Positions 1,452 to 64,000 of a DNA stretch of 64,000 nt are shown in pieces. The stretch comes from Clostridia bacterium. GTDB lineage: Bacteria; Bacillota; Clostridia; Oscillospirales; Acutalibacteraceae. The position numbers and the translations under genes were made by a program. The notes beneath the pieces are model-generated. The model was not told the origin of the DNA. It ran no database searches and saw only the letters and a list, made by a program, of their open reading frames with translations. The stretch's first letter is position 1. The number at the start of each line of letters is the position of its first letter. The stretch lies in contig JAFQCH010000016.1 in assembly GCA_017416485.1 (NCBI GenBank), positions 124,001 to 188,000 of the forward strand, written 5' to 3'.

Positions 1452-2162
1452 ATGAAAACAGCACTTGTGTTCGGCGCAACGGGCGGCATCGGCGAAGCCG
1501 TTGTGCGCCGATTGCATCGTGACGGATACAAAACCGCGATCGGCTATTGCCGTTCCGAAGAAAAGGCAAAGGCGCTGGCGGCGGAACTGTCTGCTTTTTG
1601 CGTGCAGTGCGATCAAAGCGATCCTGCAAGTGTCAACAATGCCGTGCAGGCTGTTTATGAACAGTTCGGTTCGTTGGATCTGCTTGTCAATTGCGCGGGC
1701 ATTTCCGAATGGGGACTGTTCGATATGCTTTCCGACGAAGCATGGCAACGGCTTCGCGGTGTCAATTTCGACGGCGTTGTGTTTGCCTGTCGTGCCGCCG
1801 TACCGCTTATGGTGCGTCAAAAAAGCGGCAGTATTGTGAACATCGGCTCTGTGTGGGGCGAAACGGGGGCTTCCTGTGAGGTCGCTTATTCAGCCTGCAA
1901 AGCGGGGGTTTCAGGGCTCACAAAGGCACTCGCCAAGGAACTCGCTCCTTCGGGCATCACAGTCAACTGTGTTGCGCCCGGTGCGGTGCAAACGGCAATG
2001 ATGAACCGTTTTTCGCAACAGGAAATCACTGCTTTGTGCGAAGAAATTCCCCTCGGCAGAATGGCAAACCCCGCAGAAATTGCCGATGCCGTTGCATTCC
2101 TTGCAAATGCGCGCTACATAACAGGTCAGATCCTCGGTGTCAACGGAGGACTTTATATCTGA
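1452..2162 (+). CDS. Short-chain dehydrogenase/reductase, FabG-like
   Basis: A 236-residue classical SDR, probably NAD(P)(H)-dependent. Visible features are the Rossmann motif GATGGIG (residues 8-14), NCAG (80-83), catalytic Ser133, Tyr146 and Lys150 in YSACK, and the C-terminal ITGQILGVNGG typical of 3-oxoacyl-ACP reductases. The substrate cannot be read from the sequence. It may be a genuine FabG or a sugar/alcohol dehydrogenase; no other fatty-acid genes lie nearby. The start ATG lies one base after the lipoprotein stop and lacks a strong ribosome site, which suggests translational coupling. The next gene starts 20 bp after its stop. Confidence 0.88.
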   Translation: MKTALVFGATGGIGEAVVRRLHRDGYKTAIGYCRSEEKAKALAAELSAFCVQCDQSDPASVNNAVQAVYEQFGSLDLLVNCAGISEWGLFDMLSDEAWQRLRGVNFDGVVFACRAAVPLMVRQKSGSIVNIGSVWGETGASCEVAYSACKAGVSGLTKALAKELAPSGITVNCVAPGAVQTAMMNRFSQQEITALCEEIPLGRMANPAEIADAVAFLANARYITGQILGVNGGLYI

Positions 2163-2182
2163 TAAAAAATGAGGATTTCAAA

Positions 2183-3466
2183 ATGAAAATGTTGCAAAAA
2201 TCAAACCATATCGCAGCCCTTTTGCTGGTGCTTGTGTTGCTTGTGCCTGTTTTTGCCGTGCCGTGTTCGGCGGCTTCGGTCACAACCATCAGGGATGCAC
2301 AGCTCAAGGAGTTTTATCTGCATGAGTTCAACAGGGTCGTCAATGCCGTCAAGAAGAACCGTCCGGGGTTGACCGTGCTTGCAACGGGTGTGGTTTCGCA
2401 GAGCGCCGATGAAGAAGATCGCATGGCGGATTTCGCAAAAACGGCGGTTGAAAATGTGTTCAAAAATGAAAAATCCCTTGCCGCAGACTTGCTGGATGAC
2501 CTGAAAAATAATGATTTTTCAGATACGCAGCAGACGGCCGTTTCTTATGACCGCGGTGCTTTGAACGCGGATAAAGTGCCTGTGTCGGGCAAGGAGTATG
2601 TCAGCGCGCTGTCAACGAAGTATGACTTCACCATGAAAATGCTGCGCAATGACGAGAAGCAGAGAACAGAGCTGCTTATTCAGTTCCCCGAAACTTCCCT
2701 TTTGGATGCGCTCAATCCGCAGAAAAGTGATCTTTCCAAGGTGTTCGACCTGCCGACCAATACCGATGTTATCCTCAGCCAGGACGAGGATGAGGTCATT
2801 ATTCTCGAAGGCGGTTTCTTCCAGCTGGATGACATCGTCTGCACCAATGCGTATGTTGATATTATCTATAATGATAATATGGAACTCATTACCTATACCT
2901 CCAACATCACCTACCGTGTCAAATTCAGCACCTACACGATGCTTGAATCCCTTTGGCCTCTTTTCTTCAAGACCCTGCAAGGCATGGGACTTGATGTCGG
3001 CACTGCTGCAGACTTCAACATTGTATCTATCATCATGGGACTCATCGGTGCTTTTACGGACTTTGACCCCGAAGAATCCATGAGCAGTATCTATACGGAT
3101 TACACCGTGCAGTATCAGATGTATGAACTGGACTGGACACCGCGTTATTTCGGCGATGTGGACAAAGACAACCGTGTGGATGCCGACGATGCACGTAGAA
3201 TTCTGCGTTCGTCTGTCGGCTTGACACCCATCCGCGATGCGGGGGATATTTTCTTTGCCGATATGGATTTTGACGGCGTCATCACCGCCGGCGATGCCCG
3301 TCTTGCACTTCGTGTTTCTGTTGGCCTTGATAAAAAATACACGTCCTATGAAATGCGTCAGGAACAAATCAAAGGCAACTGGGAAGAACCCGATGAACCC
3401 ATGATTCCCGATACCCCCGTTGAAGTGCCCGATGAACCCGATGTTCCCGAAATCCCCATCGACTGA
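2183..3466 (+). CDS. Secreted protein with C-terminal dockerin-like repeats
   Basis: A 427-residue exported protein. It starts with a signal peptide (basic MKMLQKSNH, a Leu/Val-rich core, cleavage near PCSAAS). The middle 250 residues match no family I know. Near residues 317-385 there are two Ca-binding dockerin-like repeats (GDVDKDNRVDADDARRILR and ADMDFDGVITAGDARLALR), each an Asp-rich loop followed by a helix ending in SVGL. The tail is acidic and proline-rich (EEPDEP, PDEPDVPEIP). The ATG at 2183 follows GAGG with about 8 bp spacing; longer in-frame starts lie inside the upstream gene. Dockerins normally bind cohesins, but no cohesin is visible here, so the partner is unknown. Confidence 0.8.
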   Translation: MKMLQKSNHIAALLLVLVLLVPVFAVPCSAASVTTIRDAQLKEFYLHEFNRVVNAVKKNRPGLTVLATGVVSQSADEEDRMADFAKTAVENVFKNEKSLAADLLDDLKNNDFSDTQQTAVSYDRGALNADKVPVSGKEYVSALSTKYDFTMKMLRNDEKQRTELLIQFPETSLLDALNPQKSDLSKVFDLPTNTDVILSQDEDEVIILEGGFFQLDDIVCTNAYVDIIYNDNMELITYTSNITYRVKFSTYTMLESLWPLFFKTLQGMGLDVGTAADFNIVSIIMGLIGAFTDFDPEESMSSIYTDYTVQYQMYELDWTPRYFGDVDKDNRVDADDARRILRSSVGLTPIRDAGDIFFADMDFDGVITAGDARLALRVSVGLDKKYTSYEMRQEQIKGNWEEPDEPMIPDTPVEVPDEPDVPEIPID

Positions 3467-11485: not shown

Positions 11486-12586
11486 TTAGTCAAAGTATAC
11501 GGGTTCGCCTGTCTTTGCGGATGTGTAGATGGCTTCAAGAATCTGTGTGACGGTGGCTGCCTGTTCGGGAAGCACGCAGGGATCGGTGTCGGTTTCAATG
11601 GCCTTGAGCCAACGACCCATGTCAACCACAGAAGCATCGGAACTTGTGTTGCCGTCATAGAATGCAACACCGCCTGCATCGAGGTTGGGCTTTTCAATGG
11701 TCTGTCTGCCGTGGCGGACATAGTTGAGCTTGACTTCGTCAACCGTGTCGATACCGCCGTTGACACCGCAAAGCATATAGGATGCTTCGATGGGCTTGGA
11801 AATGTTGAGTGCCCAGCTTGATTCGAGCATAACAACCGCACCGTTCTTCATGACAATGTAGCCGAATGCGGAATCTTCAACCGTGAACTTGGCGGGATCC
11901 CAGTCGCCCCATGCGTTGCCGGTGTTGGTCTGATCGCGAAGCTTTGCGAAGGTGTTGCCGACGACCATCTTGGGTTCGTAGTTGTTCATCATCCAAAGGG
12001 TGAGGTCGAGTGCATGGGTGCCGATGTCGATCAGCGGACCGCCGCCCTGTTCGTATTCGTTAAGGAACACACCCCATGTGGGAACGGCTCTGCGCCGGAT
12101 GGCAAGTGCCTTGCCGTAGTAGATTTCGCCCAGAACACCGCTTTCGACAACGCTTCTTGCATACAGGTTTTCAGGGGTCTGACGGTTCTGATAGCCGATG
12201 GTCAGCTTTTTGCCGGTGCGTTTTGCGGCTTCGCACATGGCAACTGCTTCCGCATAGGTTTTTGCCATGGGCTTTTCGCACATAACGTGCTTGCCGGATT
12301 CAAGTGCATCTATTGTAATGAAAGAGTGAGAACGGTTGGGGGTGCAGACATGAATAACATCAATGGTTTTGTCTTCAAGCAGTTCTTTGTATGCGGTTTC
12401 GCTGCCGTAATAAACCTTTGCATCTTCCGTGCCGAACTTTTTGGCAGCAGCTTTTGCTTTTTCTTCATCGATGTCGCAGAATGCAACCATTTCGCATTTG
12501 CCGTCGTATTTTGCGAGAGCAGGCATGTGTTTGCCGTTGGCGATGCCGCCGCAGCCGATGATACCGATACGAAGTTTTTCACTCAT
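11486..12586 (-). CDS. Gfo/Idh/MocA family NAD(P)-dependent dehydrogenase
   Basis: A 366-residue dehydrogenase. N-terminal Rossmann fold IGIIGCGGIANGKHMPALAK, then DVIHVCTPNRSH, HVMCEKPMAKTYAEA (the conserved EKP catalytic Lys) and GPLIDIGTHALDLTLWMM with the catalytic Asp/His pair. Family members oxidise sugars, inositols or glycosides at a ring carbon. It is the first gene of the operon continuing through both isomerase-like genes to folD. The start ATG at 12586 follows GGGAGGAA. Confidence 0.92.
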   Translation of the reverse strand: MSEKLRIGIIGCGGIANGKHMPALAKYDGKCEMVAFCDIDEEKAKAAAKKFGTEDAKVYYGSETAYKELLEDKTIDVIHVCTPNRSHSFITIDALESGKHVMCEKPMAKTYAEAVAMCEAAKRTGKKLTIGYQNRQTPENLYARSVVESGVLGEIYYGKALAIRRRAVPTWGVFLNEYEQGGGPLIDIGTHALDLTLWMMNNYEPKMVVGNTFAKLRDQTNTGNAWGDWDPAKFTVEDSAFGYIVMKNGAVVMLESSWALNISKPIEASYMLCGVNGGIDTVDEVKLNYVRHGRQTIEKPNLDAGGVAFYDGNTSSDASVVDMGRWLKAIETDTDPCVLPEQAATVTQILEAIYTSAKTGEPVYFD

Positions 12587-35274: not shown

Positions 35275-35629
35275 TGGTGGAGCTGAGGGGAGTCGAACCC
35301 CTGTCCGAAAATCCCTTACAGCGACTTTCTCCGGGCGCAGTCATTTATTTGATTCTCTCCTCAGACGGCGGGAAATGACACCCTCCGCCCTCGGACAGCC
35401 CCATTGTGCATGACAGGATATGAGGCGCTTCCCTGTGCACGTTCACCGCTGCATGACGCCTTTACACCGAGCCGCGGTGCTCTCGGGAAAGACGGCGGCC
35501 GCAATTAAGCAGCTGCGAGTACAGTATTTCTATTGTCGTTTATTTCTAAACTTGCGGAAGTTTAAAGAGGTACCGCACCTCTGCCCGCTTATCGGTGCTC
35601 AGAATCCCCGTCGAAATCCTTTCAGCCCC
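35275..35629 (-). ncRNA. ssrA: Transfer-messenger RNA (tmRNA)
   Basis: A 355-nt tmRNA that rescues stalled ribosomes with SmpB. The 5' end GGGGCTGAAAGGATTTCGACGG pairs with the 3' end CAGCTCC before an encoded ACCA. The T-arm reads GGACAGGGGTTCGACTCCCC. The tag frame ends AACGACAATAGAAATACTGT then GTACTCGCAGCTGCTTAA, giving a tag ending NDNRNTVLAAA; the resume codon is either just before or at this Asn. smpB lies upstream on the same strand. The gene has a 267-bp palindromic element directly at its 5' side and a copy of its 3' end downstream. Confidence 0.96.
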
Positions 35630-38821: not shown

Positions 38822-38932
38822 CATGCGGCGTGCGGGTCCTGTGCGGCGGAGCGCCGTGAACCATGTCAGGCGGGGAACCGAGCAGCATTAAGCGGTCTGC
38901 CCGAGCGCCACAGTCCGCCTGTACGCCGTGTG
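38822..38932 (+). ncRNA. ffs: Signal recognition particle RNA, small bacterial type
   Basis: About 110 nt forming one long hairpin: 5' GCGGCGTGCGGGTCCTGTG pairs with 3' CACAGTCCGCCTGTACGCCG. The apical domain IV carries ATGTCAGG, CGG-GGAA-CCG and AGCAGCA, i.e. the GGAA tetraloop with the symmetric and asymmetric loops bound by Ffh. Its position just upstream of dnaX is typical of Bacillota. Exact ends are estimated from the pairing. Confidence 0.88.
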
Positions 38933-51345: not shown

Positions 51346-52668
<1,323 letters not shown>

Positions 52669-52734
52669 TACCCTTTTCTTTAACCCGAAGGCGTACAAAG
52701 GAACTTCGAGAGGCAAAAAAGGGCAAATATATGC

Positions 52735-52772
52735 AAAAAAATGTCAAACATTCGATGTGTCTGACATTTTTT
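52735..52772 (+). terminator. Terminator of eno
   Basis: AAAAAATGTCA, an inner ACAT-TCG-ATGT stem, then TGACATTTTTT. It lies about 65 bp after the enolase stop. The 52669-53190 gap holds this, a second hairpin at 52910-52940 and an AT-rich stretch. No gene is seen there. Confidence 0.8.
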
Positions 52773-52909
52773 CATTTCTCCCGTTATTTAATTTTTTATG
52801 CTATGCTTTTTTCTTGTTTTATTTCATATATGCTCTTGGGACTTTATCGACAGAAAGAGACAATTCCGAAGAATCGTCTTTTTCCGGCATTCACTACGCT
52901 GATTGATAC

Positions 52910-52940
52910 AATGCAACACTACTGCGCCGAGTGTTGCATT
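52910..52940 (+). terminator. Second hairpin in the eno-GH35 gap
   Basis: AATGCAACACT / ACTGCGCCG / AGTGTTGCATT, a perfect 11-bp stem followed by GTTTG. The U-tract is short. It may be a reserve terminator or a transcript-stabilising hairpin. Confidence 0.5.
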
Positions 52941-53190
52941 GTTTGAAAAAAGTAAGACCGTAAAACTTAAAATTATCAGCCTGTAAAAAACAAACTTTTG
53001 CAGATTTTTGGTTTTTTTGAGAGTGAGATGTCTGTTTGTCTGAAAAAAATTCAAAAAAAATATTTTTTTGTGGAATATGATCCTGATATATGGTATAATT
53101 ATTGTCATAAATCTGTAGGATCGGGAAAGGCAAAGAGCGATATAATTCACAATAAGAGTGCAGCTTTGTAATAAGCGGGGTATATCAATT

Positions 53191-55119
53191 ATGAATTTTC
53201 AGACACGGCAAATACAGAATAATATACAAATTGTTGGTAACGCAGGCGATGGCAGGATCAGTGTCACAAATCAGATGCTTCTGAAGGACGGTAAAGCGTG
53301 GATACCCGTTATGGGAGAAATGCATTACAGCCGTGTGCCTTGTGACAGATGGGAAGAGAATCTGCGGAAGATGAAGGAAGGCGGAATAGATGTTGTTGCT
53401 TCATATGTCTTCTGGATTCATCATGAGGAGCAAAAAGGAGAATTTGTTTTCAGCGACAACCGTGATATAAGATGCTTTATAAATCTTTGTCATAAAACAG
53501 GTCTTGAATTCTGTCTTCGTATCGGCCCGTGGGCTCACGGTGAATGCAGAAACGGCGGTTTTCCCGACTGGCTGCAAAATGAATGCTCCGACATTCTGCG
53601 GTCAAGACAAGAGCCTTATATATCTTATGTCAGACGCTATATAAACAAAATTGCAGAGCAGGTCAAAGGGCTTCCTCTTTTTGCAATACAGATTGAAAAC
53701 GAATTGACAGGAGATCCCGATTATATTGAGCTGGTTCGTCAGTTTGTTACAGATGCGGGACTTCATGCACCTTTATATACTGCAACAGCTTGGGGAAAAG
53801 CAAAACTGCCCGAAACTGTTTTTCCTATGTACGGCGCATATCCCGAGGCACCCTGGACAAATCATATAAAGGAGCTTGAGCCGAACCCCAACTATTTCTT
53901 TTCTCTGATACGTGAAGACGGCTGTATCGGCTCGGATATTCTCGGCACATCAACACAAGCAACAGACTGCTCAGGCAATGTGCCGTTTATGACGTGTGAA
54001 ATGGGCGGGGGCAATCAGATTACCTACCATCGCAGACCTCTTATAAATTCCCGTGATATTGAGGCTCTTGTTATATGTAAGCTCGGAAGCGGTGTGAATC
54101 TCTTAGGATATTATATGTTCTGTGGCGGACTGAATCCCATAGGTCTTACTACTATGCAGGAAAGTAAGGCAAGCGGCTACCCGAATGACTGTCCCGTTAT
54201 ATCATACGATTTTCAGGCACCCGTCGGCGATATGGGACAAATACGGGAAAGCTATTTCCGTTTATCCTTCATTCACAGATTTTTGCATTCATTCGGTGAA
54301 ATGCTTGCTCCGATGATTGCAATAATGCCCGATAAGGCACCGTCCTCAAAGGATGATACAAAAACACTGAGGTGTGCTTTAAGAAGTGACGGAAACAGCG
54401 GTTTTCTGTTTGTGAACAACCATATCCGTCTCCATCAAATGCCTGCACATCCCGCGCATAGCTTTAATATAGCCTTAAATGAGCGAACTGTGTCCTTCAG
54501 CCTTGATATTCCTGAAGACAGCTCATTCTTTATTCCTGTGAATATCTCAGTCGGCGGTCTTGACATCCTTTATGCAACTGCACAGCCTGTTTCATACTCC
54601 GAAAACCGTTTAGAACTGCTGCAGATTGCAGGAATGAAAGCAGTTGTTGCGCTTGCAAACGGACAGATATATGCTCTTGAAGCAGGCCTGAATCGTATCA
54701 ATGACACAGATGTCGTTCTTCTGAAAAATGAGTCCTATGAAAAATCAGTGCTTCAGAAAATGAATGCTTCAGTAATACAAAAATGCTGCGATTCGGATGT
54801 GTTATTGGGCCATTTGCCGATTGAAGATAAAACCGATGAATACAAAGTATGCTGGACTGATGAGGATCAATGGCTTGTAATAAAAGCCAAAGGAAACATA
54901 GCAGGCTTTTTCGTAAACCGACAATTGGTGTCAGATTTTTATCTTAACGGCGACAGCTGGGTAATTGATCTTCGTAACATCAGAGAGAAAAACGGTATCA
55001 TAAAAATCCAACCGCTTACAGAGAAGGATATAAAAGAAATATATGCCGAGACCCCCCTCGAAACAGGCTCCTTTGTCCCCGAGGTATACACGAGTAAGGA
55101 TGACCGCTTATTAATATGA
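53191..55119 (+). CDS. Glycoside hydrolase family 35, beta-galactosidase-like
   Basis: A 642-residue enzyme. N-terminal catalytic TIM barrel with MGEMHYSRVPCDRW, KEGGIDVVASYVFWIHHE, RIGPWAHGECRNGGFPDWL, acid/base Glu in AIQIENEL (near 173) and nucleophile Glu in FMTCEMGGG (near 270). C-terminal beta domains follow. No signal peptide, so it probably acts on imported oligosaccharides, releasing beta-galactose. The ATG at 53191 follows AAGCGGGG. A promoter-like TATAAT lies near 53093. Codon use is more AT-rich than in the housekeeping genes. A terminator follows. Confidence 0.92.
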   Translation: MNFQTRQIQNNIQIVGNAGDGRISVTNQMLLKDGKAWIPVMGEMHYSRVPCDRWEENLRKMKEGGIDVVASYVFWIHHEEQKGEFVFSDNRDIRCFINLCHKTGLEFCLRIGPWAHGECRNGGFPDWLQNECSDILRSRQEPYISYVRRYINKIAEQVKGLPLFAIQIENELTGDPDYIELVRQFVTDAGLHAPLYTATAWGKAKLPETVFPMYGAYPEAPWTNHIKELEPNPNYFFSLIREDGCIGSDILGTSTQATDCSGNVPFMTCEMGGGNQITYHRRPLINSRDIEALVICKLGSGVNLLGYYMFCGGLNPIGLTTMQESKASGYPNDCPVISYDFQAPVGDMGQIRESYFRLSFIHRFLHSFGEMLAPMIAIMPDKAPSSKDDTKTLRCALRSDGNSGFLFVNNHIRLHQMPAHPAHSFNIALNERTVSFSLDIPEDSSFFIPVNISVGGLDILYATAQPVSYSENRLELLQIAGMKAVVALANGQIYALEAGLNRINDTDVVLLKNESYEKSVLQKMNASVIQKCCDSDVLLGHLPIEDKTDEYKVCWTDEDQWLVIKAKGNIAGFFVNRQLVSDFYLNGDSWVIDLRNIREKNGIIKIQPLTEKDIKEIYAETPLETGSFVPEVYTSKDDRLLI

Positions 55120-56174: not shown

Positions 56175-56545
56175 TCGTTTTCACAAAAGTTCTGCATAAC
56201 TTTTTTGCTGAAAATGCAGATTTTTCCAATGAAAAACAATTTTTAACCGACAGAAACCGTAAAAAATATCTCAAAAAGGGCTTCGTCACGAGTTGTAAAT
56301 ATTAAAATAATGCTCTTTTTTATGTAAAAGTGGTCAGGTGTTTTGGTCAATTTTAATGTTTTGTTGTATGGCCATCTTGCATAGTGCAGCGCAATTAGGG
56401 CATAAGCAGACGTTCATAGGCATCAGAAATCACTGTGGAAATACGACGGTTAATCTAATGTCGAGTAGTTTGTGCTGTTGTAAAAAAAGGGGATAGATTT
56501 AATCGTTTCTCTGTGGTATTATGAAGAAAAAAGGAGGTGTGCGGT

Positions 56546-58198
56546 ATGAAATTCGGTTCTGCTAAAAATATCAGAAATATCATAATAATATCTGTGCTTT
56601 TGGTCTGCGCCTTTGTTTTTCGTGCTGTTGCCTTTAAAACCGATGATTATTTTATCGCAACACTTCTTCTGACTTTAAGAAATGTTGTGCATATCATTAT
56701 GATAATCGTATGGTCTGTATCAATTTATATGCGTGTTGTCAGCAAGCAGATCCGCAATATGCTGATGACCGTTGGTGCATTGATGATTGCATGGCTCATT
56801 ATAAGAACCTGCAAGCTGGAGTTTTTGTATACCACCGATACACTTACGCGTTATTTATGGTATGCTTTTTATGTGCCGATGATTCTGATTCCTCTGATCG
56901 GGGTCTTTATTACCATGCACATCGGCAAAGCCGACGATTATATGATTCCGGCCAAATACAAACTGTATTTCATTCCGGCTGTTCTTGTGATTCTGTTGGT
57001 ATTTACGAATGATTACCATCGTCTTGTCTTTGATTTTCCGAATGGTATACATTATTTTAATTCTGATTATACATATGGAATTTTGTATTTTATTCCGGCC
57101 GGTTGGTTTACTTTGCTCGGCTTTTATTTTGTACTCAAGCTCCTTATTAAAAGCAGAGTGCCAGGAAGTCGGGTGTTTCAGAAGGTACATATTCTGATTA
57201 TGGCAACGGCTGTTGTTTTCTGGTGTCTGTATGCATTTACCGGAATTGACGCGGACCTTACAGCGGTTGACTGTGCTCTTATTACACTTCTTCTTGAAAG
57301 TGCAATTCAGAGCGGTCTTATCCGAACAAGCACTAACTACAGAACGCTTTTTGAAATATCAAGCGTAACGGCACAGATCGTTGATGATAATTTCAATGTT
57401 TGCATCCGTTCTGCTGAATCCGGGTATTTTACAACAGATATACTGAAAAATGCCGTTTCGGCACCGCAGAATCTCGGTGACTATATTCTGAATGCCGAAA
57501 AAATATCGGGCGGTTTCGTTTACTGGCAGGATGATATAAAGAAAATATCGGAGCTCATTGAAACCTTGCAGGAAACACAGAAGCAGCTGAGTGAAAATAA
57601 TTTTCTTTTGCAGGCTGAGTATGAGCTTAAGGAAAATAAAGCTAAAACAGAAGAAAAAAACCGTCTTTTCAATAAACTGATTTATGAAATTTCTCCTCAG
57701 CTTTCAAAGGCAGAAGAATTGCTGAATCTTGCTTCTTGTGAGGAAGAAAACAAAAGAAAACATCTTGCTAAGCTTGCAGTAATCGGGGCATATATAAAAA
57801 GACGGGGAAATCTTTTTATCATTTCTGAGGACAAAAAAATTATAAGGTCCCGTGAGATAGAATTCTGTATAAATGAGTCTTTGAGCAATTTAAGACAGCT
57901 TGATGTTGCCCCTTCGTTTGTTTTCAGCCTGCAAGAAGATATTGCAGCAGAAACTGCCGTAAAAGTATATGATATTTTTGAATTTTTCATTGAAGAGCTT
58001 CTGAATTTTGTTGATGCTGTTTTTGTTAAGATTTCTGAAAAAGACGGCTATATTTCAATGAGAATGATGTTCGGTGCTGAAAAAACGGGGTATGAAATCC
58101 ATACAGACAGTGAAATATTGAACGGTACAGAAATCAATATTGAAAACTCCGATGAGGATATACTTGTCGATATTCTCATCCCGAAGGAGGTAATGTGA
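56546..58198 (+). CDS. Membrane sensor with degenerate kinase domain (7TM N-terminus)
   Basis: A 550-residue protein. The first 235 residues have about seven or eight membrane segments, like the 7TM histidine-kinase N-terminal domain. Then comes a PAS-like part (residues 255-335), a coiled coil (LIETLQETQKQLSENNFLLQ) and a kinase-like C-terminus. The expected phospho-His helix reads LFNKLIYEISPQLSKAEELL, without His, and the N-box is degenerate (FFIEELLNFVDAVFVKI, lacking Asn-x-x-x-His). I read it as a sensor pseudokinase that works with the kinase encoded next. The ATG at 56546 follows AAGGAGGTG. First gene of the signalling operon. Confidence 0.75.
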   Translation: MKFGSAKNIRNIIIISVLLVCAFVFRAVAFKTDDYFIATLLLTLRNVVHIIMIIVWSVSIYMRVVSKQIRNMLMTVGALMIAWLIIRTCKLEFLYTTDTLTRYLWYAFYVPMILIPLIGVFITMHIGKADDYMIPAKYKLYFIPAVLVILLVFTNDYHRLVFDFPNGIHYFNSDYTYGILYFIPAGWFTLLGFYFVLKLLIKSRVPGSRVFQKVHILIMATAVVFWCLYAFTGIDADLTAVDCALITLLLESAIQSGLIRTSTNYRTLFEISSVTAQIVDDNFNVCIRSAESGYFTTDILKNAVSAPQNLGDYILNAEKISGGFVYWQDDIKKISELIETLQETQKQLSENNFLLQAEYELKENKAKTEEKNRLFNKLIYEISPQLSKAEELLNLASCEEENKRKHLAKLAVIGAYIKRRGNLFIISEDKKIIRSREIEFCINESLSNLRQLDVAPSFVFSLQEDIAAETAVKVYDIFEFFIEELLNFVDAVFVKISEKDGYISMRMMFGAEKTGYEIHTDSEILNGTEINIENSDEDILVDILIPKEVM

Positions 58199-58199
58199 T

Positions 58200-59471
58200 A
58201 TGATACCTTTTATCGGTCTGGGAACTTATGTAAGAGCATTGTTTCTGACAATTTTGTTTATTGAAGTGTGTGTTTCATTTTGTCTTACATTGTGGAGTTT
58301 TTTGCAAAAGCCGTTATTTCCGAAAATCATTTCACCTGCCGCCGCAATTTCTGCTCTTCTCTTTCTTCTGCCGTATGCTGCTTATGTTTTTGCGGAAAAG
58401 GAAGGCGTTGCAGTCAACGGCTACAGCTATATCGAAAAGTTTCTCAATATTCCTGCATTTTTCGTTATCTTGTTCACGATAGCAGATGCTATTATCCTTT
58501 CATTACTTCTTGTTTTTTTCTTTGTAAAAATCCGCCACAGTATATCAGCCTTTTCCGTAAAAGAGAGTGCAGATAAGCTTAAAACAGGAATATGCTTTTC
58601 TTATGAAAACGGAATGATAAAGCTTATAAATCACAAAATGGATGAATTGAGCAGAATCATAACCGGAAAAGAAATGACCAATGCCCTTGATTTCATAAAT
58701 TCCATCAGGAACAGAGAATGTCAGCCGGGAACAGAGGTTTTGTCCAGTGATAACGACATAATGATTCATCTTCCCGATGAGACAGTATGGCGATTCTCTG
58801 TTAAGAAAATAGGTGACATGTACGAGATTACTGCTGCGGATACCACTGATTTGTACAGGGTATCGGAAGAACTGAAGCTTTCCAATAATGAATTGAAGGA
58901 AATGAATGAACGTCTTCTTAAATACGGAGAAAATGTTGATGAGCTCACAAAATCCCGCGAGCGTCTTGAAACAAAATACCGTATTCATGCAGATCTCGGA
59001 AATGCACTTCTGGCGACAAGGTTGTATCTTCAGAATAATGACGGAAACGCCGACGATATTATTAACATCTGGAGGCGCAACATTACTGCATTGGGAGTCA
59101 AATATTCAGAAGAAACAGAGTATGATGACATAAAAGGACTTATTGATGCGGCAAAGGCTGTCGGAATAAAAGTGCACATCTCCGGTGATATGCCCGAAAA
59201 AGAGTATATAAAAAAACTGTTTACCGAGGCGACTGCCGAAGCACTCACAAATGCCGTTAAGCACGCAGATGCAAAGCATTTTAATATTTCCTTTACATCT
59301 GATCTTTTCAGTTTTACCGCATCATTTTCCAATGACGGCAAAATGGCAAACGAGTCTTTTTATGAAGGCGGAGGGCTTTCTTCGCTCAGAAAAAAGACGG
59401 AACGCATGGGCGGCAGAATGACAGTTGAAACCGAGCCTGCTTTTAATCTGATTTTAAAAGTTCCAAAATAA
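58200..59471 (+). CDS. Sensor histidine kinase
   Basis: A 423-residue kinase. Three N-terminal membrane segments (about 10-36, 43-66, 85-110), a PAS-like segment, a coiled coil (SEELKLSNNELKEMNERL) and a HisKA_3-like helix with the probable phospho-acceptor His263 in YRIHADLGNALLATRLYL. The ATPase N-box EALTNAVKHADAKH and the G-box EGGGLSSLRKKTERMGG look intact. The ATG lies one base after the previous stop, behind AAGGAGGT. Its partner is the LuxR-type regulator encoded 12 bp downstream. Confidence 0.85.
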   Translation: MIPFIGLGTYVRALFLTILFIEVCVSFCLTLWSFLQKPLFPKIISPAAAISALLFLLPYAAYVFAEKEGVAVNGYSYIEKFLNIPAFFVILFTIADAIILSLLLVFFFVKIRHSISAFSVKESADKLKTGICFSYENGMIKLINHKMDELSRIITGKEMTNALDFINSIRNRECQPGTEVLSSDNDIMIHLPDETVWRFSVKKIGDMYEITAADTTDLYRVSEELKLSNNELKEMNERLLKYGENVDELTKSRERLETKYRIHADLGNALLATRLYLQNNDGNADDIINIWRRNITALGVKYSEETEYDDIKGLIDAAKAVGIKVHISGDMPEKEYIKKLFTEATAEALTNAVKHADAKHFNISFTSDLFSFTASFSNDGKMANESFYEGGGLSSLRKKTERMGGRMTVETEPAFNLILKVPK

Positions 59472-59483
59472 GGAGAACATCGT

Positions 59484-60104
59484 ATGATAAACGTACTTAT
59501 AGTTGAAGATGACCGAATGGCAAGCAAGCTGCTTGAAGTGTTTTTACAGGACAGTGAGGTCTATAAGGTCATAGCCACAGTTGAAAGTGCTTCCATGGCA
59601 GAGCTTTTCTGCAGTAAAAAAATGTGCGATCTCATACTTATGGATGTTTGCACATCAATGAATGCAAGCGGACTTGATGCCGCAGAAAAAATCAAGGCAT
59701 CTTATCCTGAAATAAAAATTATAATCATCACAAGTCAGCCCGAAATCAGCTTTCTTGAGAGAGCAAAAAATATCGGTGTTGAGAGCTTCTGGTATAAAAC
59801 TCCGGTTGCAAGTGAATTGATAAGTGTAATGGACAGCACGGTTGCGGGCAAAAATGTGTATCCCGAAATGACTCCGACGCTTAAGATGGGCTACGCATTG
59901 AGTGTAGATTTCACAGAACGTGAGCTTGATGTGTTGCGTGCACTTATCACGGGTGACACAAACAAGGAAATCGGAGAACGGCTGAATATGTCGCAATATA
60001 CCGTGCGCGATTACATTCAGAGTATGCTCGAAAAAACAGGCTTCAGGAGCCGTACCGAACTCGCCGTAAAGGCAAGAGAAAGCGGACTTGTAATCAACCA
60101 ATAA
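59484..60104 (+). CDS. LuxR/NarL-type response regulator
   Basis: A 206-residue regulator. Receiver domain with acidic pair Glu8-Asp9, Asp10, phospho-acceptor Asp54 (LILMDVCTS), Thr/Ser switch ITSQPE and Lys in FWYKTP. C-terminal helix-turn-helix about 140-200: TERELDVLRALITGDTNKEI and LNMSQYTVRDYIQSMLEKTG. Third gene of the signalling operon. The palindrome at 60164-60177, just downstream in the promoter of the next gene, is its most likely target. Confidence 0.93.
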   Translation: MINVLIVEDDRMASKLLEVFLQDSEVYKVIATVESASMAELFCSKKMCDLILMDVCTSMNASGLDAAEKIKASYPEIKIIIITSQPEISFLERAKNIGVESFWYKTPVASELISVMDSTVAGKNVYPEMTPTLKMGYALSVDFTERELDVLRALITGDTNKEIGERLNMSQYTVRDYIQSMLEKTGFRSRTELAVKARESGLVINQ

Positions 60105-60108
60105 CTAC

Positions 60109-60140
60109 GGGGCTGTGAAAACAGCCTCTTTTCTTTTTTT
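60109..60140 (+). terminator. Terminator of the signalling operon
   Basis: GGGGCTGT-GAAA-ACAGCCTC followed by TTTTCTTTTTTTT, starting 5 bp after the regulator stop. It separates the regulator transcript from its presumed target gene. Confidence 0.85.
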
Positions 60141-60163: not shown

Positions 60164-60206
60164 CCTACAAATGTAGGTAGATGAAAAAGATGTCCTGATT
60201 TATAAT
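60164..60206 (+). promoter_or_regulatory. Activator site and promoter of the 1206-residue secreted protein
   Basis: Palindrome CCTACAAATGTAGG (60164-60177), exactly 23 bp of spacer, then TATAAT (60201-60206), 34 bp before the ATG at 60240. No -35 hexamer is present where one is expected, which fits an activator-dependent promoter. The identical palindrome with identical spacing occurs at 63913-63955. Confidence 0.75.
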
Positions 60207-60239
60207 AATAAATAATTATGCAAAAAAGGAGTTAAATGT

Positions 60240-63200
60240 ATGCAAAAGAAAATTTTGAGCTTCATTCTTACCGCGACTCTTGTGCTTGGTGCTTTTTTGC
60301 CGTCCTTTGCGGTTTTGCCCAAAACGCAGGCACAAGCTGAAGTTGCATCGCCCTATAAGCAGAATGCAAACAATTCTATGGTTTATGTCAGTACCTATGA
60401 GGAGTTGCGTACTGCTGTCAAGTATGCAACGGATAACCAGACGATAACATTGCAAAGCGACATCAGTGAGGTGTCCGGGCATCCGATGGAAACATACGGT
60501 GATCTCGAATTCACTGTGGATGGTACTGTTGTGCTGGATATGAACGGTTGCAGCATCAGACTTGGCTCAAAAAACACGATAACTGTGTTCAACATCACGG
60601 GCAAGACGAAACTGCATATCATCAACTCAAGAATTGATGAAAACGATTGCGACATCAACTTCGTTCCCCAGAATAAAGTGGTTACCTACCGCATGCCCCG
60701 TTCAGTTATCTGCGTCAACAATGCCGCCGCAGAGTTGTATATCCACAACGGTATTCATCTCATTCTCGAAGAAAATACAAATCTGACGGACAGTGATTCA
60801 CTTGTGGCACTTCTGATATATGCCATCGGCCGTCTGGAAGTAATGGGAGAGATTGAAAGCGTTCCCACCATCTGGGCACAGCCCAAGGGGAGCGACGGCA
60901 TTTTCTTCTGGGGTGACCCGAGAGATCCGGATACGTTTGTTAATACATCCGTTTTTCTGCGCTCGGGTGTCATTTCAGCACACGGAAACAGCGTCAGAGC
61001 GGATGAACTGAGCACATCCTCCTTCAAGGAATTCAAACTTGCAACGAATCTTATGGCATACGGTGACGACAGCAATACCGACAGACTGTATGTTAAATAC
61101 AGTACGGATATGACCATTGATGACATTACACTTACGGACGGCACCTTCGTGGCTGCCGGCAACGATCTTTCCGCAATCGATACGATCGCAGAGCTGTGTG
61201 TCAATGACGGTGAATGTGTTTATTTTTACCCCAAAACATACTGTACGCACAGCAGTGGTGAGAACACGCCGGTTCTCAGCTATGCAGACGGACATTTGGA
61301 TCTGTGCAGCTGCAAAACAGCGTATGTGACAAGCAGTCACAATGCAGGCGCTGATAAAGCCTGCCTGCAGTGCGAGCTTACAGAAATGAACACCAATCCC
61401 GCAACAGCTATTGTTGACGAGGATGTTATTGAAGTCGGTACGCTGAGTGAGCTCAGAGATGCACTCAGAAGCAACAAGAGCAATTTTACGATCAGGCTTA
61501 CAAAAGACATTTATGATGCAAGCTTTTCTTCTGCTTCGATCAGAGCAGAAGCCATTACCCTTGCCGCTTACGGTACGGTTGTGCTGGATCTCAACGGCTT
61601 CGGTCTGTTTGTGACAACCGACAATGGGCCTTTGTTCATCCTGCAGGACAACTACTGCAACACCGCCGGCCCCACAAAGCTGATTATCAAGAATTCAGCA
61701 AGCAAAATGAGCTACATTGTAAATATGACTGCCGGCATTGTTATGCTTGACAATGCAGATTGCACATTCGTCCTTCTTGATAATGTAACTCTGATTACGG
61801 AAAGCACTGCAGATGCAGACAGCGCTGTGATCATTGCAAGAGAATTTGCCAATCTGAATATATTTGGCGGCGCCGTCAAAAACGTAATCGGTCATGCGGT
61901 TGCGTTTGACAACTCGTCCTACGAACCGTATCGGAATTCGTCTGTTTCCATCAGCACTGCTGATCTCGTCTCCGCTGAATCCTGCATTTCCTTCGGTTCT
62001 TCCGCATTCAAAACTGACTCGTTTGCGTCGTTTAAAGTCGGTCTTGCACGTTTTGAAATTCTGAACAACGAAAGCATTGCCGTGTTCGAGTGCAATAATC
62101 AGTCAACTGTCAAATGGAGTAATATCATCAGAACCTGGAATGCAACACAGTCTTATGATCTGTATGACAGCAAAATGAACAAGATGGACAAGACGGTTGC
62201 CGTCAACGGACAGAAGGGCACCATTCAGGTGCTTTTCGGTGAGGCATCCGATTGCACGGAGCATAATTTTGAATATTTCCTGTCCGAAACCGACAAGCAT
62301 TACGGAAATTGTACCCTGTGCGGACGCACGTACACTGCAGAACACACCAAGGTTGATTCCTGCACAAAGGGCGAGGTGATCGTATGTGATTGCGGAATCA
62401 GGGAAAAGGTTGTTGCACATACGATCAGACCACTCTCTGCTAAGAATCCTACCTGTGAACAGACCGGTATAAAAGAAGGATATTACAGATGTATTGTTGT
62501 GACCTGCGGCAAGTATTTTGCTGATGCAGCAGGTACAATTGAAGTTGCAAAAGAAGATGTTATCATCCCTGTAAAGCACACGCTGAATTTTGTTCCTGCA
62601 GAAGGTCCCGAATATCCGTCCTGTACTGACAACTGCATCCTGGCACACTACCACTGCTCCAAGTGTGAGCGCATGTTTGCTGATGAAAACGGTACAACCG
62701 AGCTGACGGAAGCTGAGGTTTACTTTACCGGAGCGCATGATTTTGAATATTTCACCAACAAGTATCCCACTTGTGAGGATTACGGTGTGATTGAGCATAA
62801 ATGGTGCCGCAACTGCAATCAGTATTTTGCACCCGACGGCAGCATCGGAAAGCAGGAGGATTTCTTTATCGAGCCCAACGGCCATACCTTCCCGCTGCTT
62901 CACTTCACCTACAAGGCTGAAACCTGTGTGGACGGCGGTCACATGGAATACTATCAGTGTGAAGAATGCGAAAAGTATTTCTCGGATGCCGCTGCAGCCG
63001 AAGAACTGACAACAACCGAGGTTTTCTTCCCCTCTCTCGGCGGCCACACAATGGTATTTGTTGAAAAAATCGAACCCTCCTGCACAATGGGCGGTGCCGA
63101 AGCACATTATGAATGTTCCTACTGCGGTCTGCTGGCAGAAGATGCGGACGCAACGGTTGAGCTTGAAGAAAGTGATATTTACATTGCACCCAAAGGACAC

Positions 63201-63860
63201 ATGAGCCAGTACCGTGATGCGGTCGCACCCGATTGTGTCAATCCCGGTAATAAAGAGCATTATGTTTGCCTGAACTGCGGCGAAACCTTCACGGATGCAT
63301 CCTGCAGCACCTACTTTGATGCTGTGATTCCCGCACTCGGTCACACCCCGGGTACAGCCGTAAAGGAAAATGAAGTTGCCCCCGAATGCGAAACAGCCGG
63401 TTCTTATGATTCGGTCACATACTGCACGGTCTGCAACGCAGAGGCAAGCAGAGAAACCATCCCGGTTGCACCGCTGTATCATCCCGATGATTACATTTCC
63501 GTTGAAAACAAGGTGGAGGCTACCTGTACACAGGACGGCTCTTATGATGAGGTTTTGCGTTGTATGATCTGTCACGGTGAGCTCAGCTGTGTAAGCCACA
63601 CTGTTCCTGCACTCGGTCACAATTACGTGAACGGCAAATGCACCAACTGCGGTGAAAAGGAATATCTGCCCGGTGACGTGGATGGAACCGGCACCGTCAC
63701 AGCTGCAGACGCCAGACTGGCGCTGCGTGCTTCTGTTAGCCTTGAAGTTCTCGACGAAAAACAGCTTCTTTCTGCCGATGTAGACGGCATCGCAGGCGTC
63801 ACTGCAGCCGATGCCCGCCTGATTTTGAGAGCATCTGTCGGTCTGGAAACACTTTCATAA
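60240..63860 (+). CDS. Large secreted repeat protein with C-terminal dockerin
   Basis: A 1206-residue exported protein. Signal peptide 1 to about 33 (MQKKILSFILTATLVLGAFL). Residues about 48-380 and 405-670 are two related beta-helix-like regions (STYEELRTAVKY with GTVVLDMNGCSI; TLSELRDALRS with GTVVLDLNGFGL). Residues about 680-1130 hold about ten repeats of 35-45 residues with a single Cys, a CxxC and a GH (ECSYCGL, CLNCGETF, ALGHT). The last 65 residues are a dockerin with two Ca loops (GDVDGTGTVTAADARLALRA, ADVDGIAGVTAADARLILRA). A surface adhesin or substrate-binding role is inferred. Ribosome site AAAAAGGAG. Confidence 0.85.
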   Translation: MQKKILSFILTATLVLGAFLPSFAVLPKTQAQAEVASPYKQNANNSMVYVSTYEELRTAVKYATDNQTITLQSDISEVSGHPMETYGDLEFTVDGTVVLDMNGCSIRLGSKNTITVFNITGKTKLHIINSRIDENDCDINFVPQNKVVTYRMPRSVICVNNAAAELYIHNGIHLILEENTNLTDSDSLVALLIYAIGRLEVMGEIESVPTIWAQPKGSDGIFFWGDPRDPDTFVNTSVFLRSGVISAHGNSVRADELSTSSFKEFKLATNLMAYGDDSNTDRLYVKYSTDMTIDDITLTDGTFVAAGNDLSAIDTIAELCVNDGECVYFYPKTYCTHSSGENTPVLSYADGHLDLCSCKTAYVTSSHNAGADKACLQCELTEMNTNPATAIVDEDVIEVGTLSELRDALRSNKSNFTIRLTKDIYDASFSSASIRAEAITLAAYGTVVLDLNGFGLFVTTDNGPLFILQDNYCNTAGPTKLIIKNSASKMSYIVNMTAGIVMLDNADCTFVLLDNVTLITESTADADSAVIIAREFANLNIFGGAVKNVIGHAVAFDNSSYEPYRNSSVSISTADLVSAESCISFGSSAFKTDSFASFKVGLARFEILNNESIAVFECNNQSTVKWSNIIRTWNATQSYDLYDSKMNKMDKTVAVNGQKGTIQVLFGEASDCTEHNFEYFLSETDKHYGNCTLCGRTYTAEHTKVDSCTKGEVIVCDCGIREKVVAHTIRPLSAKNPTCEQTGIKEGYYRCIVVTCGKYFADAAGTIEVAKEDVIIPVKHTLNFVPAEGPEYPSCTDNCILAHYHCSKCERMFADENGTTELTEAEVYFTGAHDFEYFTNKYPTCEDYGVIEHKWCRNCNQYFAPDGSIGKQEDFFIEPNGHTFPLLHFTYKAETCVDGGHMEYYQCEECEKYFSDAAAAEELTTTEVFFPSLGGHTMVFVEKIEPSCTMGGAEAHYECSYCGLLAEDADATVELEESDIYIAPKGHMSQYRDAVAPDCVNPGNKEHYVCLNCGETFTDASCSTYFDAVIPALGHTPGTAVKENEVAPECETAGSYDSVTYCTVCNAEASRETIPVAPLYHPDDYISVENKVEATCTQDGSYDEVLRCMICHGELSCVSHTVPALGHNYVNGKCTNCGEKEYLPGDVDGTGTVTAADARLALRASVSLEVLDEKQLLSADVDGIAGVTAADARLILRASVGLETLS

Positions 63861-63872
63861 ATAAACTGCACA

Positions 63873-63904
63873 GCAGGCGCTCTTTTCGGAGTGCCTGTTT
63901 TTTT
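63873..63904 (+). terminator. Terminator of the large secreted protein
   Basis: CAGGCGCTC-TTTTCG-GAGTGCCTG (one G-T pair) followed by TTTTTTTTT, about 15 bp after the stop codon. Confidence 0.85.
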
Positions 63905-63912
63905 TTGCTCAC

Positions 63913-64000
63913 CCTACAAATGTAGGTTGTTTGACGGCATTATATTTTTTATTATATTACTGTGTATCTCTATACCAAATTCATATGACCAAAGGAGAAC
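63913..64000 (+). promoter_or_regulatory. Second activator site and promoter; gene starts beyond the window
   Basis: CCTACAAATGTAGG (63913-63926), 23-bp spacer, TATTAT (63950-63955), then an AT-rich leader with AAAGGAG at 63992-63998, the ribosome site of a gene that begins outside the window. No good -35 box. Same layout as 60164-60206, so the next gene is probably co-regulated with the 1206-residue protein. Confidence 0.75.

Follow-up and report, generated by a model that had tools for sequence, protein, structure and literature searches.

The palindrome CCTACANNTGTAGG is very probably the operator of the response regulator (RR) encoded at 59484-60104, which would activate a local regulon by a class II mechanism in answer to a signal passed through two kinase-like proteins, HK1 and HK2; judged from sequence comparison, we put the probability of this reading at about 0.87. 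Two of the sites lie in the window, by which we mean the whole stretch of 64,000 nucleotides analysed, and a third lies beyond its end. On the best reading of the sequences the regulon is local and would consist of two secreted beta-helix/dockerin-like surface proteins together with an SPFH/YdjI-like envelope-stress operon.

Palindromes and promoter geometry

An earlier note on this DNA had described two identical palindromes at identical spacing from a -10 box, the first of them 60 bp behind the end of a LuxR-type regulator gene. The coordinates, the distance to the RR gene, the 23-bp spacing and the hexamers TATAAT and TATTAT were all verified (Table 1). A genome-wide scan for palindromes at this spacing from a -10 box, which the note had proposed, gave three sites including one that its author had not seen. 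Over the 3.0 Mb of the genome there are only three copies of CTACANNTGTAG, compared with nine of the reversed control pattern; the three copies all lie on one contig, in a span of at most 7.1 kb, downstream of the RR gene. In the window, where chance would give 0.28 matches, no further copy of CCTACAAATGTAGG with up to two mismatches was found. Near-matches with one and two mismatches are present elsewhere, on contigs C35 and C25, and the match on C35 falls within a coding frame; the genome-wide search did not reveal palindromes scattered through coding regions. A chance origin of the palindromes was ruled out by this rarity together with phylogenetic footprinting. Duplication of a single region was likewise ruled out, as the note had argued, because spacers and flanks differ: the 24 homologous sites hold 21 distinct spacer sequences, and the palindrome centre varies as well.

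Table 1. Features of the signalling operon and its candidate regulon (window positions unless stated otherwise)
Feature	Position	Strand	Remarks
HK1	56537..58198	+	7TM sensor histidine-kinase-like, 553 aa, probably pseudokinase; Pfam HisKA_7TM, E 2.3e-8
HK2	58200..59471	+	membrane histidine kinase, UhpB/NarX type, 423 aa; weak HATPase_c match, E 9e-4, below the curated Pfam cut-off; UhpB C-terminal match
RR	59484..60104	+	NarL/FixJ (LuxR-HTH) type, 206 aa; recognition helix TVRDYIQ; Response_reg 5.9e-16, GerE 8.7e-15
Intrinsic terminator after RR gene	60109..60128	+	
Operator 1 (candidate) CCTACAAATGTAGG	60164..60177	.	centre about -42.5
-10 box TATAAT, promoter 1	60201..60206	+	predicted; 23 bp after operator 1
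Target 1	60240..63860	+	ORF; secreted surface protein, 1206 aa; two beta-helix-like domains, Cys-rich repeats, dockerin-like end
Terminator after target 1	63872..63899	+	
Operator 2 (candidate) CCTACAAATGTAGG	63913..63926	.	
-10 box TATTAT, promoter 2	63950..63955	+	predicted; 23 bp after operator 2
Target 2	starts 6 bp past window end		surface protein, relative of target 1, 909 aa; Dockerin_1
Third site CCTACAATTGTAGG	C23:191229, outside window, ~3.3 kb past site 2		23 bp, then predicted -10 box TAAAAT

The geometry of these promoters is rigid. At all 24 sites, drawn from nine genomes, the palindrome centre lies 30 bp from the -10 box, with the 23-bp spacing kept throughout; the palindrome arms are invariant across the same sites, but they were fixed by the search pattern. 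The best match to a TTGACA -35 box is at the background of random positions (mostly 3/6). With a constant distance to the -10 box, the site thus occupies the -35 region, whose own sequence stays at background level, and this suggests promoters of class II type with the palindrome at about -42.5 from the predicted start. Class II activators generally sit at about -42.5. The lux boxes, which are bound by related LuxR-type domains, are likewise centred at -42.5 (PMC4471428).

The absence of a -35 box from both promoters, as first claimed, therefore holds in substance, but at site 2 there is a possible overlapping promoter, TTGACG-16-TATATT. Its presence beside operator 2, and the capacity of NarL-type regulators to act as repressors, could mean that RR binds these sites and represses, so that the promoters are turned off upon signal. 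Orthologues do not keep the TTGACG-16-TATATT promoter, the -35 sequence does not exceed background, as suits an activator, and the centre-to-(-10) distance is rigid in every lineage, a constraint required by a class II activator but not by a repressor. Repression is consequently improbable, and both the geometry and the missing -35 box point to activation.

The signalling operon

The system had been described as an orphan, which is wrong, since RR is the third gene of an operon behind two kinase-like genes. RR belongs to the NarL/FixJ type: both Pfam domains score over the cut-off, and the translation shows LILMD, whose phospho-acceptor Asp, D54, is invariant in eight orthologues. Its nearest solved relatives are the response regulators 4zmr/4hye, DesR, VraR and NarL. 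HK2 has the features of a kinase, with a His in the DHp region and HATPase N and G boxes, as judged from a translation showing TNAVKHADA, GGGLSSLR and RIHADLG, and its ATPase motifs look intact. HK1, on the other hand, shows neither a conserved phospho-acceptor His nor HATPase motifs, as no HATPase match was obtained from Pfam at E values up to 5 and no His is conserved in the two-helix region among the 10 homologues compared. Its predicted structure (pLDDT 72) contains TM helices, a PAS-like region, a two-helix stalk and a degenerate ATPase-like end, and it is probably a kinase-like sensor of the pseudokinase kind.

Upstream of the operon the window carries an enolase gene and a GH35 beta-galactosidase-like gene (51370-55119). 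Farther away, Rfam places a tmRNA at 35275-35629 (-) and a bacterial small SRP RNA at 38830-38927 (+).

The mechanism that we consider most likely is the following. HK1, as a 7TM pseudokinase sensor, would steer HK2, the active kinase, which would in turn phosphorylate RR. A dimer of phosphorylated RR would then bind CCTACANNTGTAGG with one DNA-binding domain on each half-site, in keeping with the sequence covariation described below. The operator, with its centre 30 bp upstream of the -10 box (about -42.5), would stand in for the -35 box, and RR would recruit RNA polymerase from the class II position. Binding of RR to the sites and the roles of both kinases are predicted here from sequence.

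Conservation in the genus and an unlinked case

Six further genomes of the genus encode an RR orthologue of 92-98% identity, and all six carry two to four CCTACANNTGTAGG sites each, downstream of RR. Within the genus the motif is present in 7/7 genomes with an RR orthologue compared with 1/19 without. The exception, G017, has two sites on a 4.35-kb contig that ends 160 bp before the first of them, and its 84% complete assembly yielded no RR orthologue. Among the nearest named genomes, which belong to uncultured Oscillospiraceae/Clostridia bacteria, several come from gut samples of goat, sheep and water deer.

In this genus the motif and the RR locus are linked, so every gene of the locus co-occurs with the motif equally well, and the palindrome could in principle belong to another regulator, or form an RNA hairpin, and merely travel with the locus. 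The case of G028, a genome from another genus of the same family, speaks against this. Here two divergent CCTACANNTGTAGG sites, each 23 bp before TATAAT, lie on a contig other than that of RR, and the motif is not explained by mere linkage. The site pair faces an SPFH operon (SPFH 57% identical) in one direction and a surface protein of the same kind in the other. The G028 regulator is 58% identical to the present RR overall, with 50% in the receiver and 81% in GerE, and shares 31/33 residues across the recognition helix and the helix that follows; HK1 is only 26% identical. Across lineages, moreover, the motif tracks the recognition helix. As for a hairpin, the palindrome lies upstream of the -10 box and hence outside the transcript of that promoter, and separate terminators precede the palindromes. 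A travelling element is barely credible on this evidence, and we retain the operator of RR as our reading.

CCTACANNTGTAGG was also seen in the other genera represented by G041, G047, G066, G108, G110 and G098, with no -10 box at 23 bp. The dispersed repeat CCTACATTTGTAGGGCGACGC... of G459, found on five contigs (L096, L098, L100, L102, L103), contains the same palindrome, apparently by coincidence.

By sequence, the main rival is an operator for a repressor of the BlaI/MecI/CopY type. Known operators of this family contain TACANNTGTA, the palindrome core TACAAATGTA fits the textbook cop/bla box, and the genome encodes a BlaI-family protein. However, BlaI-family genes are present in all 27 genomes tested, those devoid of the motif included, and the resident BlaI gene has operators of its own, (GT)CTACANNNTGTAAAC, with a 3-nt centre, over its -35/-10 region. 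TACANNTGTA is absent from that promoter. The palindrome therefore neither co-occurs specifically with a BlaI gene nor matches the operator of the resident one, and the missing -35 box suits an activator better. We rejected this identity, which is very improbable, on the distribution of BlaI and the differing resident operators, again in favour of RR.

Covariation of operator and recognition helix

We evaluated palindromes in 51 loci of distant RR homologues, counting those followed by a -10 box and then a gene start. The centre-to-(-10) distance peaks at 30 bp, with 17 palindromes compared with a mean of 2.3 at other distances. The palindrome changes with the recognition helix: the present helix, TVRDYIQ, goes with CCTACANNTGTAGG, TVRKYVK (Blautia and a Lachnospiraceae genome) with TATACTANNNNTAGTATA, TVKSHIQHL with ATCARCCNNNNGGYTGAT, TVKAHVR with AGTCACNNGTGACGAT, TVK(A/T)HVS with TNACCCANNTGGGTNA and NIRWHIG with ACTRTTACNNGTAAYAGT. 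A matrix of motif by helix group is diagonal except for one cell, a pattern that arises partly by construction, as the consensus sequences were derived from the same loci. Since the helix groups are partly clades, part of this covariation is shared descent.

Two further comparisons bear on descent. The Blautia RR is closer than that of G028 to the present RR in the receiver, and the same holds for HK1, yet its helix and operator differ. The branch of the RR tree that unites the present clade and Blautia does not include G028, and the operator that it shares with the present clade is thus not explained by nearest kinship. Loci fetched later at the level of the class carry the helix-predicted motif at the same distance; that of L191 had already been seen in an unguided scan, whereas those of L195, L198, L199 and L200 were found only by searching for the helix-predicted motif (up to two mismatches). 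The distance peak alone is weak in this set, at 4 compared with 1.3. Together, co-occurrence, the unlinked match in G028 and helix covariation lend strong support to the dedicated regulon of the adjacent LuxR-type regulator that the earlier note had proposed.

The further suggestion that the system is not autoregulated holds in the present lineage, where no motif was seen upstream of the signalling operon, but not among relatives, some of which have their own motif immediately in front of the RR gene. This is so in the TVKSHIQHL group, whose members are likely autoregulated, as judged from the position of the motif. Some genomes hold up to five RR copies, most with both kinase genes (G024, loci L058, L059, L064 and L071; G004, locus L057), and in L057 several GTCACTTGTGAC sites cluster round one module.

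Candidate target genes

The note had assigned to the regulon the 1206-residue protein and the gene just beyond the window. Both stand as candidate targets, but a third target operon was missing from that list. The predicted structure of target 1 (residues 1-688; pLDDT 65, moderate confidence) shows two beta-helix-like domains, with PL6 lyases and other beta-helix proteins as weak matches to its fold. We set a PL6 lyase function aside and read these matches as the beta-helix fold only. In Pfam, the Dockerin_1 match is weak and below the cut-off in target 1 and just over it in target 2.

Target 3, behind the third site, is an operon with SPFH (Band_7_1), DUF4428, zinc-ribbon, TPM-domain and DUF6935 genes. 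The SPFH gene adjoins the zinc-ribbon and TPM (YdjH-like) genes, as in a YdjI-type SPFH operon, and this arrangement is kept beside the G028 sites. In B. subtilis ydjGHI is controlled by sigma-W, whereas target 3 would here be assigned to a two-component system. In its SPFH (YdjI-like), zinc-ribbon and TPM-domain genes target 3 is like B. subtilis YdjGHI, a complex that anchors PspA at the membrane during stress (PMC8581546). No PspA gene was seen in the target 3 operon.

In G006 and G018 one site lies upstream of a gene named by sequence as a putative 5'-nucleotidase-type metallophosphatase. In G015 (L048) operator and SPFH gene are separated by a small membrane-protein-like ORF (about 11740-12080 in RR orientation), and G020 has a similar 400-nt gap there. 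SPFH or DUF4428 genes also adjoin distant RR homologues in L067 (G002), L070 (G008) and L118 (G335), and the link between regulator and target may thus be old. Contig C23 also carries, about 11-13 kb beyond the window end, an MjaI-type restriction endonuclease gene (Pfam RE_MjaI, E 5.5e-65) next to a putative DNA methyltransferase gene on the other strand (L007:1383-1976, 2010-3287).

Discussion

Neither the regulator nor the promoter type is of a new kind, and the underlying principle is known. At the 7-2-7 sites of E. coli NarL, two half-sites flank a 2-bp centre, and the present palindrome likewise has two half-sites and a 2-bp centre; the half-site is CCTACA for NarL and TACYYMT here, and other species of the present family differ again. 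VraR, LiaR and DesR, the NarL/FixJ regulators of Firmicutes, share with the present RR a receiver and a LuxR-type HTH. The present system departs from these in its operator sequence, in having two kinase-like proteins, one of them a 7TM pseudokinase, and in its local surface-protein regulon. In S. mutans, LiaR recognises a motif that contains a 16-bp inverted repeat, and it leaves the promoter of its own operon unbound (PMC4447274). LuxR provides a further parallel, as its class II promoters also have a palindrome bound by a LuxR-type HTH (PMC4471428). The lux box, however, is 20 bp long compared with 14-16 bp for the present site, and LuxR has an acyl-homoserine-lactone domain where the present RR has a phosphorylation-type receiver.

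Given the content of the targets, the data suggest, with low certainty, that the system responds to an envelope or surface signal. We consider it probable that these genes belong to a Clostridia-wide family of three-gene modules, each with a 7TM pseudokinase, a kinase and a NarL-type RR, whose operators have changed along with the recognition helix at an unchanged -42.5 geometry. In a limited search of open-access papers we found no description of such a three-gene family or of a helix-operator code.

A predicted binding site, a target list and a promoter geometry are rarely available together for regulators of uncultured gut bacteria. Here all three come from sequence. The rule also applies to relatives whose recognition helices differ, which gives helix-to-operator pairs for the LuxR-type HTH, and a 7TM-type sensor is linked both to large surface proteins and to a membrane-stress operon. 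If the module family is real, its many insulated local regulons would drive beta-helix surface proteins as well as an SPFH membrane-stress operon, and with its members as a natural data set one could learn to read the operator sequence off a LuxR-type helix.
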